DNA of 6,023 nucleotides from Candidatus Mcinerneyibacteriota bacterium. Lineage in GTDB: Bacteria; AUK180; JAQVHJ01. Position numbers and translations under genes: made by a program. The notes beneath the pieces were generated by a model. The model ran no database searches and was not told the origin of the DNA. It saw only the letters and a program-made list of their open reading frames with translations. Positions 699 through 5,996 of the stretch are shown here, in pieces. The stretch covers positions 1-6,023 of the forward strand of contig DAOVMD010000207.1 of the NCBI GenBank assembly GCA_030630935.1, given 5' to 3'. The first letter of the stretch is position 1; each line of letters begins with the position of its first letter.

Positions 699-761
699 AA
701 AATTATTCTTACTTATTCATTCTTCACTGTTCATTGTTACTTGTGACATCTTTGATGTCAC
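672..761. repeat. Composite repeat element, copy B (conserved 31-mer, heptad array, cap hairpin)
   Basis: Three parts in plus order. A 31-bp block (672-702) is 29/31 identical to 373-403 and contains GCATT/AATGC arms (680-684, 694-698). A degenerate array of six 7-nt units with consensus near TTNTTCA runs from 706 to 747. A perfect hairpin GTGACATC-TTT-GATGTCAC (743-761) closes the element, overlapping the last heptad and one base of the clpC TAG stop. Total 90 bp, against 88 bp for copy A. Confidence 0.6.
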
Positions 762-3250
762 TATTTCTTCACCTCGTCTTTCTTAGGTTCTAAAGACTTT
801 GGTTTCTTATTTTTTATCTTCTCATAACTAAGATGTCTATTTTCAACTTTAATTTTTATAATTGAATTATTCAGGGTTTTATCCTTTAGAATTGCCTCAG
901 ATAACATATCCTCAAGGAGGTTTTGAATTATTCTCCTTAAAGGCCGTGCTCCAAGATCAGGATTATAACCCAAATCAATTATTAATTCTTTTGCTTTAGG
1001 AGTTAATTCGAGTGAGATATTTTTCTTTGTCAACTGAACTAAGAGATCTTTCAGCATTATATCAACAATTAGGGATAACTCTTCTTTTGTTAAGGCATGG
1101 AAAACAATGATCTCATCTAATCTATTCAGGAATTCAGGTCGGAAGATATTCTTTAGTTCAGACATGATCTTCTGTTTCATCTCCTCATATTCAAGTATCT
1201 GATCGTCCTTTCTGAAACCAAGTGATTTTCCTTTCCCAATTATTCTTGCCCCTGCATTAGAAGTCATAATTATTACAGAATTCTTAAAATCAACTGTTCG
1301 ACCGTTATTATCTGTTAACCTTCCATCCTCAAGAATCTGGAGTAAGAGGTTAAATACATCAGGATGAGCTTTTTCAATCTCGTCAAATAAAACTACTGAA
1401 TACGGTCGACGCCGAACTGCCTCGGTTAGTTGTCCTCCTTCTTCAAACCCGACATAACCCGGAGGAGCACCTATTAACCTTGATACAGCGAACTTCTCCA
1501 TGTATTCAGACATATCAATCCTGATAAGAGCATCTTCACTTGCAAATAAAAATTCTGAGAGAGCCTTTGCAAGTTCAGTTTTCCCGACACCGGTTGGTCC
1601 AAGAAAAATGAAAGAACCAATCGGACGTCTTGGGTTTTTAATCCCGGCACGAGCTCGACGAATCGCTCTGGAGATGGTTGTAATTGCTTCATCCTGACCG
1701 ATTACTCTCTTGTGAAGTTCGTCTTCCATCCTGAGTAACTTCTCAGATTCTTCTTCTTCCAATCTCGAAACTGGAATTCCGGTCGACTTACTTACAATCT
1801 CAGCGATATGTTCCTCGGTAAGGACAACCTGTTTTTCACTCCGTTTCTCCTCCCATTTCTTCTTGAGCTTACGTAACTTTTCTTTTAACTTCTTCTCCTC
1901 ATCACGGAATTTTGCTGCCTTCTCAAATTCCTGATGATTGGAACTGGCAATCTTCTCTTTCTCGATTTCCTGAATCTTAACTTCAACTTCTTTTATCTCA
2001 GGCGGCAGAGTCATTGTTCTTAATCGAGCACGGGACCCCGCTTCATCAATTAAATCAATGGCCTTATCCGGAAGAAACCTATCGGGGATATATCTATCAG
2101 AAAGCTCAGCGGCTGCAATTAATGCCTCATCAGTAAGTGTAACATGATGATGTGTTTCATACCTATCTCGTAATGCTTTTAAGATTTCAATTGTTTCTTC
2201 AACAGTTGGAGCTTTTACGAAAATTGGCTGGAATCTTCTTTCCAGGGCTTTATCCTTTTCAATATATTTCCTATATTCATCCAGAGTTGTTGCACCAATA
2301 CACTGAATCTCACCTCTCGAAAGAGCTGGTTTCATCATACTCGAAGCATCGATTGAACCTTCAGCAGAACCTGCTCCGATCATATTATGAATTTCATCAA
2401 TAAATATAACTATATTTTTTGACTTTGTAATATCTTTTAAAACTTTCTTCATCCTGCTTTCAAATTGACCACGGTACTTTGTTCCCGCAACAATTGCTGC
2501 AAGGTCAAGACTTAATAATCTTTTATTTTTTAATAATTCAGGAATATCCCCGTTAACTATCATCTGAGCAAGACCTTCAACAATCGCAGTCTTACCAACT
2601 CCCGGCTCACCAATGAGAACAGGATTATTCTTCTTACGCCGGGATAAAATCTGAATAACCCGCTCCATCTCGTTTTCTCTACCGACAACCGGGTCTAATA
2701 ACTTCTTAGCTGCAAGTTTCGTTAAATCCCTGCTGAATTCATCTAATGATTGAGAATGATCCATTGTCCCCGGTTTCTTGAACGGATTTCCATAATCACC
2801 TTCATCTCGAAGTGAAGCAATTCTCCGTAATAATTCCGCCCTGAGTTCATGGAGGTCAAGTCCGAGATTCAACAGAACCTTTATCCCAACTCCTTCGCCC
2901 TCATGAAGTAAACCCAACAGAATATGTTCCGTTCCTACAAAATTATTTCCCAGTTTCCGGGATTGAGATTGGGATAACTCAATAATCTGCTTGGCTCGAG
3001 GAGTATAACGTAATGGTGTGAATGGTAATACTATCCCGGTGCCCTGACCAATTATCTTTAATACCTGCTGCTGAGCAAATTCAAGAGTAACTTCTAATTC
3101 CCGGAGAATTCTGGAAGCAAGTTCTTCTTCTTCCTGAAGAATCCCTAAAAGAATATGTTCACTCCCAATGTAATCATGAAAAAATGCCCGGGCTTCCTTC
3201 TCGGCATTGGAGAGAGCATTCTTTGCACCTCGTGTAAAATTATCAAACAT
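761..3250 (-). CDS. clpC: ClpC-type AAA+ protein unfoldase (ATP-dependent Clp protease ATP-binding subunit), complete
   Basis: Class I Hsp100 unfoldase of 829 residues, close to the usual ClpC length. It would unfold cytosolic substrates and thread them into ClpP. Seen in order: two Clp_N repeats (about 16-67 and 91-142, with GSEHILLG at 29-36 and GTEHILLG at 106-113); first AAA+ domain with Walker A GEPGVGKT 214-221, pore loop KYRG 257-260, Walker B VIFIDE 281-286 and arginine finger ERRF 337-340; a short middle region with a UVR motif (about 438-466), which marks ClpC rather than ClpB; second AAA+ domain with Walker A GPTGVGKT 551-558, pore loop GYVG 598-601, Walker B LFDE 621-624, sensor-1 Asn in TSNAG (663-667) and sensor-2 GARPLRR 767-773. 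LGF at 677-679 occupies the ClpP-docking loop, so ClpP partnership is expected. The Lys-rich tail (about 811-829) is variable. It starts 12 bp after sppA with its own Shine-Dalgarno and ends in tandem stops TAG TGA. No ctsR, mcsA, mcsB or clpP is present, unlike the Firmicute clpC operon. Nothing catalytic is missing. Confidence 0.97.
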   Translation of the reverse strand: MFDNFTRGAKNALSNAEKEARAFFHDYIGSEHILLGILQEEEELASRILRELEVTLEFAQQQVLKIIGQGTGIVLPFTPLRYTPRAKQIIELSQSQSRKLGNNFVGTEHILLGLLHEGEGVGIKVLLNLGLDLHELRAELLRRIASLRDEGDYGNPFKKPGTMDHSQSLDEFSRDLTKLAAKKLLDPVVGRENEMERVIQILSRRKKNNPVLIGEPGVGKTAIVEGLAQMIVNGDIPELLKNKRLLSLDLAAIVAGTKYRGQFESRMKKVLKDITKSKNIVIFIDEIHNMIGAGSAEGSIDASSMMKPALSRGEIQCIGATTLDEYRKYIEKDKALERRFQPIFVKAPTVEETIEILKALRDRYETHHHVTLTDEALIAAAELSDRYIPDRFLPDKAIDLIDEAGSRARLRTMTLPPEIKEVEVKIQEIEKEKIASSNHQEFEKAAKFRDEEKKLKEKLRKLKKKWEEKRSEKQVVLTEEHIAEIVSKSTGIPVSRLEEEESEKLLRMEDELHKRVIGQDEAITTISRAIRRARAGIKNPRRPIGSFIFLGPTGVGKTELAKALSEFLFASEDALIRIDMSEYMEKFAVSRLIGAPPGYVGFEEGGQLTEAVRRRPYSVVLFDEIEKAHPDVFNLLLQILEDGRLTDNNGRTVDFKNSVIIMTSNAGARIIGKGKSLGFRKDDQILEYEEMKQKIMSELKNIFRPEFLNRLDEIIVFHALTKEELSLIVDIMLKDLLVQLTKKNISLELTPKAKELIIDLGYNPDLGARPLRRIIQNLLEDMLSEAILKDKTLNNSIIKIKVENRHLSYEKIKNKKPKSLEPKKDEVKK

Positions 3251-3257
3251 TTTTAAT

Positions 3258-3264
3258 ACCTCTT
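3258..3264 (-). promoter_or_regulatory. clpC ribosome binding site overlapping the sppA stop codon
   Basis: AAGAGGT lies 7 nt before the clpC ATG (3250-3248). Its first two bases are the last two bases of the sppA TAA stop (3265-3263). A ribosome ending on sppA therefore covers the clpC initiation region, which predicts translational coupling and a shared transcript. The motif is weaker than the sppA site, consistent with reliance on coupling. Confidence 0.75.
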
Positions 3265-5719
3265 AATTCGTTTCAATTGAATAAGGACAATAATACCAAT
3301 ATTTTCCTGAGTTCAAAATATCAAGTCCCAGATCAGGAATAAACAATGACCTGATATCTCCACCTGTGAAAATCTCATTCATTAGATTCCCACGAGTATC
3401 CATGTACAAAATATTCGTTATCTTTTTAATCTTAGCTTCTTTCGCAGCTAATTTTATTGCGTCCTGTAAGGTTCCTATCTCATCAATTAAATTTATCTCT
3501 AATGCTTGACGACCTGTGAAAACCTGACCTCGGGCGAGCTCTTCAACTTTATCAAGATTTAAACCTCTGCCGGCTGAAACTTTTTTCTTAAATTTTAAGT
3601 AGAAATCACTCATATGTTTTTTTAGAATATCCCGTTCTTCAGGTGAAAATGGCCGGTTCAGAGCATAGATATCTGCATGCTTTCCGAATTTAACCTGAGA
3701 TTGGGTTATTCCTAACTTTCCGTAGAGTTCCTTTAAAACAAACTTCCCGCCAAAAATACCGATGGAACCTGTGATTGTTCCCGGATCGGCTACGATCTTA
3801 TCTGCAGGGGCAGCAATATAATATCCACCGGATGCTGCAACATTACCCATACTGATAATTACTTTCTTCCCGCTCTTTTTCAATGCTTCAATCTTCTGCC
3901 AGATAATATCAGATGCAATCGCTGAACCTCCTGGCGAATCTACCCTGATTACAACTGCCTTAATATCTTTTCTATTGGCTAACTCATCAAGCTTCTTTGC
4001 AATGGTTTCTGAACCTGCGGTATTTCCAAAAAGAAGATTCCTCCCGGATTTTCCTGTTACAATCGTTCCTGTAATAAACATAACTGCAATCTGAGCTTTA
4101 TTAGACCAGTTATCATTATAGAAATCAACCATCTCAATATTTAGCTGAGAATATTTACCCGGGAATGAAAAACCTCTGTGATATTCCTTAATAAGATCCT
4201 TCAATTCCGGTTCATAACCGATTGCATCAATTAAACCAAATTCCTTTGCCTGCTCTGCTGATATAAGACCATAATTATCAATGATATCTTCAATCCTGGA
4301 TTTCTCTAACTCTCTACCTTCGGCAATGCCGGTAATGAGTTGATCATAAATATCTCCGAGTAAACTCTTTAAATTCTCTTCTGCAGCAGGGGAAATCTCC
4401 GTGCGTGTAAATTGTTCAACTGCTGATTTATACTTATTTGAATCCGGTCTTATAAAGTCAGCTTGAATCCCCAACTTATCAAATAGCCCCTTAAAAAATG
4501 TAAGTCTTGCAGAGATCCCAAATAATTCAAGAGACCCTGATGACGGCATTATAATTGCATCACACATACTTGCAAGATAAAAATCTTTTAACCCGGCACC
4601 ATATTCAAGGTAACAGATTATATACTTATCCCAGGTTTGAATCTTTTCCATTATATCAATTAGTTCCTGTACTTGAGAAATCGATAGGGAGTTTGATTTC
4701 AAATATAGAACAACTCCTGAAACCTCATCAATATATTGAACCTTCTCAAATTGTGAAACTAAATCCCGGAACTTTGGAAGACGTGGAGAAAATATCCCGC
4801 CTCGGATATCCTCTTCAGTATAAGAACCGCCAATCTTGATTTTCGCCACCATTGTAGGTCTGTACTTGGTCGGTATACCCTTGAATTCTTTCTTGTGATA
4901 AAGACTGTCAAATGTAAATGCAAGGTTATCTATATTCATCGTTTTATCTTGATTCTCAACTCGTGAGTAAGAAACTGAAGAGAAACCTGAGTAAATTGAA
5001 ATACCAAACCGATACTCGTTATCCTTATCTCCGTTTGCAAATACATACATCAACGGTAAAACCTCAAGCTTTACTCCATAATAATTATTGTATAATCTGA
5101 ATTTATCTTTCTCAAATTCCTCATATTCTGTGTCCCAGGTTAAAGTAATCCTGTTTGTTAATGGTCGAATCGCAACACCACCGCGTAACCTTCTCTGAAG
5201 ACGGTCATCTAAAAATTCCCGGCCATAAACACGGTTCCGAACAACTGCTCCAAAGGAAACCCAGTTATAAGGTCGAAGCATTAAACCAATATCAAAATTC
5301 TCTGTACGACTAACTGCACCAAAGTCCGAGTAATACCAGCGATGATTAAAGCCAATCGTAAGATTATTAATCTTAAGAATCGACCCACCCCAGTTCAATA
5401 CCTTTAACTTGGATTCTGTCTCAGAATCAATAAATTCCTCATAACCTATACTCCCTAATATCGGTAATCTTAAAAGATAAATATTCCTGCCGACTATATA
5501 AGATGGATCTATATTAGTATCAAATGAAAAATAACCTTCGGAACGCCTCTTAAATCCTAAACCTGCAGGATTTATTAATAGAGCAGAAACATCGTCATTA
5601 GTTGCAACCGAAGTAAATGTTCCAACCTGCCTGTTTAAATATACCTCATCAAGGGCAAAAACAGGTAACAGTGTTAAACTTAAAAATACTAATGTCAAAA
5701 TTAAAAACAACTTCTTCAT
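3263..5719 (-). CDS. sppA: Signal peptide peptidase SppA (67K type, family S49) fused to an N-terminal outer-membrane beta-barrel-like domain
   Basis: An 818-residue exported serine protease that should degrade cleaved signal peptides. Residues 1-22 are a signal peptide (MKK, a Leu/Phe core, likely cleavage after VFA). Residues 23 to about 285 hold no further hydrophobic helix but a run of short amphipathic strands with aromatic ends. The opening NDDVSALLINPAGLG (41-55) is the signature seen at the start of PorV/UPF0164 outer-membrane barrels. From about 290 comes SppA: an N-terminal S49 domain (about 290-510) with the catalytic lysine K431 in KYKSAVEQF, and a C-terminal S49 domain (about 542-760) with the nucleophile S630 in NVAASGGYY, plus DSPGGSA 594-600 and TGSIGIFGG 650-658. 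K431 and S630 align with the E. coli K209/S409 dyad, so the enzyme should be active. A tail of about 55 residues follows. E. coli SppA is about 618 residues with an N-terminal membrane helix; here the barrel-like module takes that place. The start is fixed by AGGAGG 5 nt upstream and the signal peptide. First gene of a pair with clpC. Protease identity is very secure; the barrel is a fold inference. Confidence 0.95.
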   Translation of the reverse strand: MKKLFLILTLVFLSLTLLPVFALDEVYLNRQVGTFTSVATNDDVSALLINPAGLGFKRRSEGYFSFDTNIDPSYIVGRNIYLLRLPILGSIGYEEFIDSETESKLKVLNWGGSILKINNLTIGFNHRWYYSDFGAVSRTENFDIGLMLRPYNWVSFGAVVRNRVYGREFLDDRLQRRLRGGVAIRPLTNRITLTWDTEYEEFEKDKFRLYNNYYGVKLEVLPLMYVFANGDKDNEYRFGISIYSGFSSVSYSRVENQDKTMNIDNLAFTFDSLYHKKEFKGIPTKYRPTMVAKIKIGGSYTEEDIRGGIFSPRLPKFRDLVSQFEKVQYIDEVSGVVLYLKSNSLSISQVQELIDIMEKIQTWDKYIICYLEYGAGLKDFYLASMCDAIIMPSSGSLELFGISARLTFFKGLFDKLGIQADFIRPDSNKYKSAVEQFTRTEISPAAEENLKSLLGDIYDQLITGIAEGRELEKSRIEDIIDNYGLISAEQAKEFGLIDAIGYEPELKDLIKEYHRGFSFPGKYSQLNIEMVDFYNDNWSNKAQIAVMFITGTIVTGKSGRNLLFGNTAGSETIAKKLDELANRKDIKAVVIRVDSPGGSAIASDIIWQKIEALKKSGKKVIISMGNVAASGGYYIAAPADKIVADPGTITGSIGIFGGKFVLKELYGKLGITQSQVKFGKHADIYALNRPFSPEERDILKKHMSDFYLKFKKKVSAGRGLNLDKVEELARGQVFTGRQALEINLIDEIGTLQDAIKLAAKEAKIKKITNILYMDTRGNLMNEIFTGGDIRSLFIPDLGLDILNSGKYWYYCPYSIETN

Positions 5720-5724
5720 AGATT

Positions 5725-5732
5725 CCTCCTTA
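5725..5732 (-). promoter_or_regulatory. Strong sppA Shine-Dalgarno site
   Basis: TAAGGAGG ends 5 nt before the ATG at 5719-5717. It is a near-perfect anti-16S complement, fixes the start codon, and places the signal peptide at residue 1. Confidence 0.88.
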
Positions 5733-5861: not shown

Positions 5862-5909
5862 AAAAAAAAAAGATATTTTACCACCCCGAACTAAAAGAAA
5901 AAACGGGGT
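5862..5909 (-). terminator. Weak terminator-like hairpin plus T10, reading leftward upstream of sppA
   Basis: On the minus strand the 6-bp stem (extendable by two G-T wobbles) is followed by a 10-base T tract about 11 nt from the stem base. That distance is too long for a classic Rho-independent terminator, so it is only a candidate for insulating sppA from an upstream gene outside the window. Confidence 0.2.
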
Positions 5910-5919
5910 AAACTCCGAA
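5881..5919. repeat. CCCCG-stem hairpin repeat, copy 1
   Basis: CCACCCCGAA (5881-5890) and a right block at 5904-5919 match copy 2 (5964-5996) at 10/10 and 14/16 positions. The arms ACCCCG (5883-5888) and CGGGGT (5904-5909) pair over 6 bp. The 15-nt interior is A-rich and unlike that of copy 2. A second small hairpin, CTCCG-AACA-CGGAG (5913-5926), is attached on the right side. On the minus strand the stem is followed, after about 11 nt, by T10 (5871-5862), so it could also end a minus-strand transcript arriving from beyond the right edge. Confidence 0.55.
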
Positions 5920-5963
5920 CACGGAGGAAAACATATAAAAACAAAAGGAAAACAATTATTTCA

Positions 5964-5996
5964 CCACCCCGAAGTGAATTCGGGGTAAATTCCGGA
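5964..5996. repeat. CCCCG-stem hairpin repeat, copy 2
   Basis: Second copy of the element at 5881-5919. Arms ACCCCGAA (5966-5973) and TTCGGGGT (5979-5986) form a perfect 8-bp stem with a 5-nt loop. The flanking CCA and TAAAYTCCGRA blocks are shared with copy 1. Stem blocks are conserved while the loop differs, which points to a structured interspersed repeat rather than chance. Confidence 0.6.

Follow-up and report, generated by a model that had tools for sequence, protein, structure and literature searches.

The 6,023-nt stretch of DNA analysed here (the window) encodes an SppA-type protease fused behind a signal peptide and a predicted barrel. We consider it about two-thirds probable that the product is an outer-membrane-anchored, periplasmic signal-peptide-peptidase-type protease whose barrel serves mainly as an anchor or docking part. 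Descriptions of SppA place it at the inner membrane, where it acts on spent signal peptides, although its true physiological substrates are debated. The analysis shows the domain make-up, catalytic residues, predicted fold, homology and recurrence of the fusion; its insertion in the outer membrane, the periplasmic side of the protease, the tetramer and the substrates are what we infer.

The fusion gene occupies positions 3263..5719 on the minus strand (818 aa, ATG to TAA in the open reading frame listing), and a Shine-Dalgarno sequence read from the DNA (AAGGAGG, 5725..5731, minus) lies 5 nt upstream of its ATG. All parts of the gene given below are likewise on the minus strand. Residues 1-22 (5654..5719) form a signal peptide of the typical Sec type, with probable cleavage after the terminal VFA and with no lipobox cysteine, in keeping with the cleavable-type signal peptide described in the first-pass annotation of this DNA. 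In a hydrophobicity scan it was the sole hydrophobic 19-mer stretch of the window's protein. The models place an N-terminal plug, or hatch, next (residues 23-60; 5540..5653), and NDDVSALLINPAGLG, noted earlier as lying near the start of this domain, corresponds to residues 41-55. A predicted 14-strand beta-barrel (residues 61-271; 4907..5539), delimited from two models, structure alignment and hhalign, is joined by a linker of low model confidence and without a transmembrane helix (residues 272-287; 4859..4906) to a 67K-type SppA (peptidase S49) domain recognised by profiles and structure alignment (residues 288-775; 3395..4858). The protein closes with a C-terminal tail (residues 776-818; 3266..3394). 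A C-terminal 'PYxIxx' was considered as a barrel-closing strand placed after SppA and was rejected, as barrel-less SppA has the same ending. A chance open frame or an assembly chimera was also ruled out, because the identical junction is found in many unrelated genomes. No RNA families were found within the 6,023-nt window.

The protease part was identified with several independent comparisons. Residues 317-782 match TIGR00705 (SppA 67K type) at 324.5 bits (cut-off 311.45), PF01343 matches two stretches of the protein (241.9 bits), and the match to E. coli SppA (3bez) covers residues 319-775 with an E value of 1.9e-54. When modelled residues 288-775 were compared with residues 55-551 of 3bez_C, 463 residues aligned with a Z score of 38.0 and an rmsd of 2.8. 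The catalytic lysine K431 lies in the N-half (4427..4429) and the catalytic serine S630 in the C-half (3830..3832), and this Ser-Lys dyad is invariant in 17/17 fused homologues. The complete 67K-type SppA that had been claimed, with both residues at these positions, was thus borne out: the SppA part of the fusion is a complete two-repeat SppA with its dyad, and peptidase activity is predicted from its sequence.

The fold of the N-terminal domain was predicted with AlphaFold2, once for the whole protein (17-row alignment, pLDDT 78.2, pTM 0.65) and once for residues 1-300 alone (31-row alignment, pLDDT 78.0, pTM 0.74). Both alignments are shallow and both models have locally low confidence, which in the full-length model falls at residues 165-172 and 273-286. 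The two models agree on 14 strands at residues 61-271, preceded by two short helices at 46-55; the amphipathic strands that were read from the sequence at the outset were therefore recovered twice, and the structure prediction proposed as a check returned a barrel and no soluble fold. In structure alignments, residues 25-274 gave best Z scores of 24-26 against FadL, TodX, TbuX and PorV (rmsd about 3 A), and the barrel OmpG reached only about Z 17 as against 21-26 for FadL, TodX, PorV and BamG-type chains. Foldseek TM-scores of the barrel model to PorV were moderate (0.56). The start of the domain aligns with the start of the FadL hatch, and an NPA motif (N50-P51-A52; 5564..5572) is conserved among its homologues (N in 30/31, P in 31/31 and A in 26/31). 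In FadL, the NPA motif is part of the hatch, which closes off the lumen (PMC8407342). Together, the models and alignments support the prediction that this domain is a FadL/PorV-superfamily barrel of 14 strands with an N-terminal hatch.

Kinship at the level of sequence is more distant. The N-terminal domain matched no Pfam family up to E 10, UPF0164, Toluene_X and PorV included, and gave no match in PHROGs. PorV_fam (NF033709) scored 15.6 bits over residues 37-62 only, below its cut-off of 90. Single-sequence searches tie the domain to L039 and L040, which themselves score 129.8 and 81.7 bits with PorV_fam. When a profile of 17 fused N-terminal domains was compared by hhalign with 11 PorV/PorQ-family proteins from the same and related genomes, the probability was 99 and the score 129.9 over about 204 columns, as against 32.1 for a reversed profile and 9-16 for column-shuffled ones. 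The score was still 81.3 after the first 62 residues, and with them the NPA region, had been removed. These comparisons support the domain as a remote PorV/PorQ relative outside the curated PorV_fam and Pfam families; we call it a relative and not a member because it falls below the PorV_fam curated cut-off. From the first-pass description of a PorV/UPF0164-type barrel, we can retain the remote kinship with PorV, but the UPF0164 half found no counterpart in Pfam.

The fusion is not peculiar to the window's genome, and the survey of its recurrence recommended earlier found it in several phyla. It is present in 7/7 genomes of the window's phylum. The window's own genome (80% complete) yielded only one SppA. 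Each of the five genomes of the second family of this phylum also has a short SppA of ~320-333 aa. Four of these five carry two fused copies; the sister-family paralogues (L046, L033 and L048 versus L047, L032, L016 and L035) form two supported clades, and only one of the two adjoins clpC. In another phylum, at least 75 of 84 genomes gave a match that extends across both barrel and SppA; more than 60 of these fused genomes encode, in addition, an SppA that lacks the barrel (about 600-690 aa). The fusion was found in 3/4 genomes of a third phylum, plus one case cut by a contig end. It also turns up in single genomes of other phyla, and further cases occur in G007, G009, G013, G031, G034 and G057. 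A separate barrel gene in G062 (a 291-aa ORF) was ruled out, as the frame runs past the contig end. In the open-access literature that we searched, we found no account of an SppA-barrel fusion; the fusion, an ordinary enzyme on an unusual anchor, is widespread and apparently unremarked there. In a tree of the SppA part, which has long branches, fused and unfused rows are intermixed with seven changes at the fewest, and the starred branches force at least two changes between the fused and unfused states. The fusion may go back to one ancient event with later losses, or it may have arisen repeatedly.

The gene that follows, clpC (761..3250, minus strand, 829 aa), starts 12 nt past the stop of the fusion sppA, and this order is kept in 7/7 genomes of the window's phylum, across both families. 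Because ClpC is cytoplasmic, the adjacency points to co-expression more than to a common task. The AT-rich non-coding DNA beyond clpC contains a 34-nt direct repeat (370-403 and 669-702, 91% identical). Upstream of the fusion, a hairpin-like CACCCCGAA...CGGGGTAAA unit occurs twice within positions 5866-5994, in copies that are imperfect (about 80%), and a fixed-spacer version of this motif had no match in the window's genome. That genome (G000) also contains a large set of PorV paralogues (at least 14 PorV/PorQ-family matches) and 33 matches to type IX secretion system (T9SS) sorting domains. At another locus, L041 of G045, the fused sppA is followed downstream by a signal-peptide-bearing ORF (3134-4141, minus) that looks PorV-like by eye; a putative isoaspartate methyltransferase ORF, also judged by eye, lies between the two.

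In E. coli, an N-terminal transmembrane helix fastens SppA to the inner membrane (PMC9360617). In the window's protein, the SppA domain starts where the solved chain of the E. coli enzyme begins (3bez residue 55), and because the junction coincides with this point, the barrel seems to stand in the place of the inner-membrane helix. A retained transmembrane helix before SppA had been named as an observation that would count against an outer-membrane enzyme; the hydrophobicity scan found no helix of the E. coli type directly before SppA in the window's protein, and in none of the 35 fused proteins scanned did the stretch from barrel to SppA contain a hydrophobic 19-mer. Nearly all barrel-less 67K SppAs had one N-terminal hydrophobic segment in the same scan. 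We regard an outer-membrane location of the fused SppA as a strong prediction.

It is possible, although we think it unlikely, that the barrel functions as a channel or shuttle coupled to SppA, for peptide disposal, for peptide import or as a side branch of type IX secretion. Peptides or secretion substrates would then bind to the barrel or travel through it, to be trimmed or destroyed by SppA. The superfamily does include transporters (FadL, TodX) and the shuttle protein PorV, and the window's phylum has a T9SS, with 24-42 matches to C-terminal sorting domains per genome and SprA-like proteins in 7/7 genomes. SprA-like proteins were detected in 10/11 of the fused genomes sampled outside this phylum and in 9/45 unfused genomes (Fisher p 2e-5, a raw value that ignores kinship). 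However, this association tracks ancestry, as 4 of the 11 sampled fused genomes belong to one phylum, and exceptions to co-occurrence run both ways: G034 has the fusion without SprA, and G012, G015, G051 and G059 have SprA above the cut-off without the fusion. A strict role as a type IX secretion partner was rejected on these grounds, since the association is present but not strict. The hatch region is also kept and would block the lumen.

A docking role on the BAM complex is a rather improbable alternative. BamG is a 14-strand, FadL-type subunit bound to BamA in the BAM complex of Bacteroidota (PMC12578637), and the fused barrel might dock in the same manner, with SppA removing outer-membrane proteins that have stalled or misfolded there. 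The model aligned with the BAM-associated barrels 9n2d_B, 9hjm_F and 9hiv_F at Z scores of 21-23, but this is slightly below the best FadL or PorV chains (about 25).

We see very little chance that the protein is an ordinary inner-membrane SppA, in which the hydrophobic stretch stays uncleaved as an anchor and the strand-rich domain acts as a periplasmic spacer. Signal peptides do resemble anchors, and the SppAs characterised so far have one N-terminal hydrophobic segment each (PMC9360617; PMC13236525). Against this stand the predicted barrel with its hatch and the VFA cleavage site after the hydrophobic stretch. To our knowledge, FadL/PorV-superfamily barrels with a hatch have no soluble or inner-membrane members. 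The annotation had left the protease bowl either in the periplasm or at the cell surface, and of these we keep only the former: the bowl should lie on the periplasmic side, because the even number of modelled strands (14) and the N-terminal hatch put both termini there, as in FadL and PorV. A surface-facing SppA domain, which that annotation raised and which would fit the commonness of surface proteases in T9SS bacteria, is opposed by the same predicted topology and is the reading to which we give the least credence.

For an outer-membrane-anchored, periplasmic protease, the following sequence of events may be proposed. The fusion protein would be exported by Sec and its signal peptide then removed, after which the FadL/PorV-type 14-strand barrel would insert in the outer membrane, plugged by its own N-terminal hatch. 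The C-terminus of the barrel would come out on the periplasmic side and bear the complete Ser-Lys SppA via the short linker; the protease is probably a tetramer, suspended from four barrels. The protease most likely acts on freed peptides and protein fragments close to the outer membrane, on its periplasmic side. The activity for which SppA first became known is the degradation of lipoprotein signal peptides, as an inner-membrane protein (PMC9360617), and clearance of lipoprotein signal remnants is the least likely of the roles proposed for the fused enzyme because SppA does that job at the inner membrane. Since the fused SppA is borne by a barrel and recurs in several lineages, it probably works at a second membrane, and where a separate helix-anchored SppA is encoded, that enzyme would serve the inner membrane and the fused one the outer. 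Such a division of labour would extend only tentatively to the window's species, in whose 80%-complete genome a single SppA was found. A more far-reaching version, in which several phyla exchanged the helix for a FadL/PorV barrel beside an inner-membrane SppA and the barrel gates peptide exit or substrate entry, is doubtful in our view. If this two-membrane version were true, peptides would be cleared at both membranes, with the barrel as a gate.

The widespread and conserved barrel form would mean that part of the SppA family acts away from the inner membrane. In Flavobacterium columnare, production of outer-membrane vesicles rose 3.8-fold when the ordinary sppA was lost (PMC13236525), and the fusion may bear on this increase. 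It would be an unusual layout for an outer-membrane protein to hold a periplasmic protease, probably multi-subunit, as part of itself.

Compared with known systems, the fusion shares the whole two-repeat protease of E. coli SppA (protease IV, 3bf0/3bez), with a Ser-Lys dyad across the halves, but has a barrel domain of ~250 residues where the E. coli enzyme has one N-terminal inner-membrane helix. With the FadL, TodX and TbuX (Toluene_X) channels it shares the fold and the hatch, at a best Z of about 25 and 10-13% identity. It differs from them in the size of its N-terminal domain (~250 residues, as against about 365-445 in their solved chains), in the absence of a Pfam match to that domain and in its C-terminal protease. 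PorV/PorQ proteins (NF033709; F. johnsoniae PorV 6h3i_F and 8gl6_F) likewise have a 14-strand barrel, a plug and an NPA(G) motif (Z 24-25). However, PorV has no enzyme domain, and the shuttle role is known for PorV, to which the fusion is compared by fold and profile. BamG has the same fold (Z 21-23) and no protease domain. The OmpA-like layout, an N-terminal barrel followed by a periplasmic peptidoglycan-binding C-terminal domain, follows the same general plan as the fusion, in which the barrel is of another type and the periplasmic domain is an enzyme.
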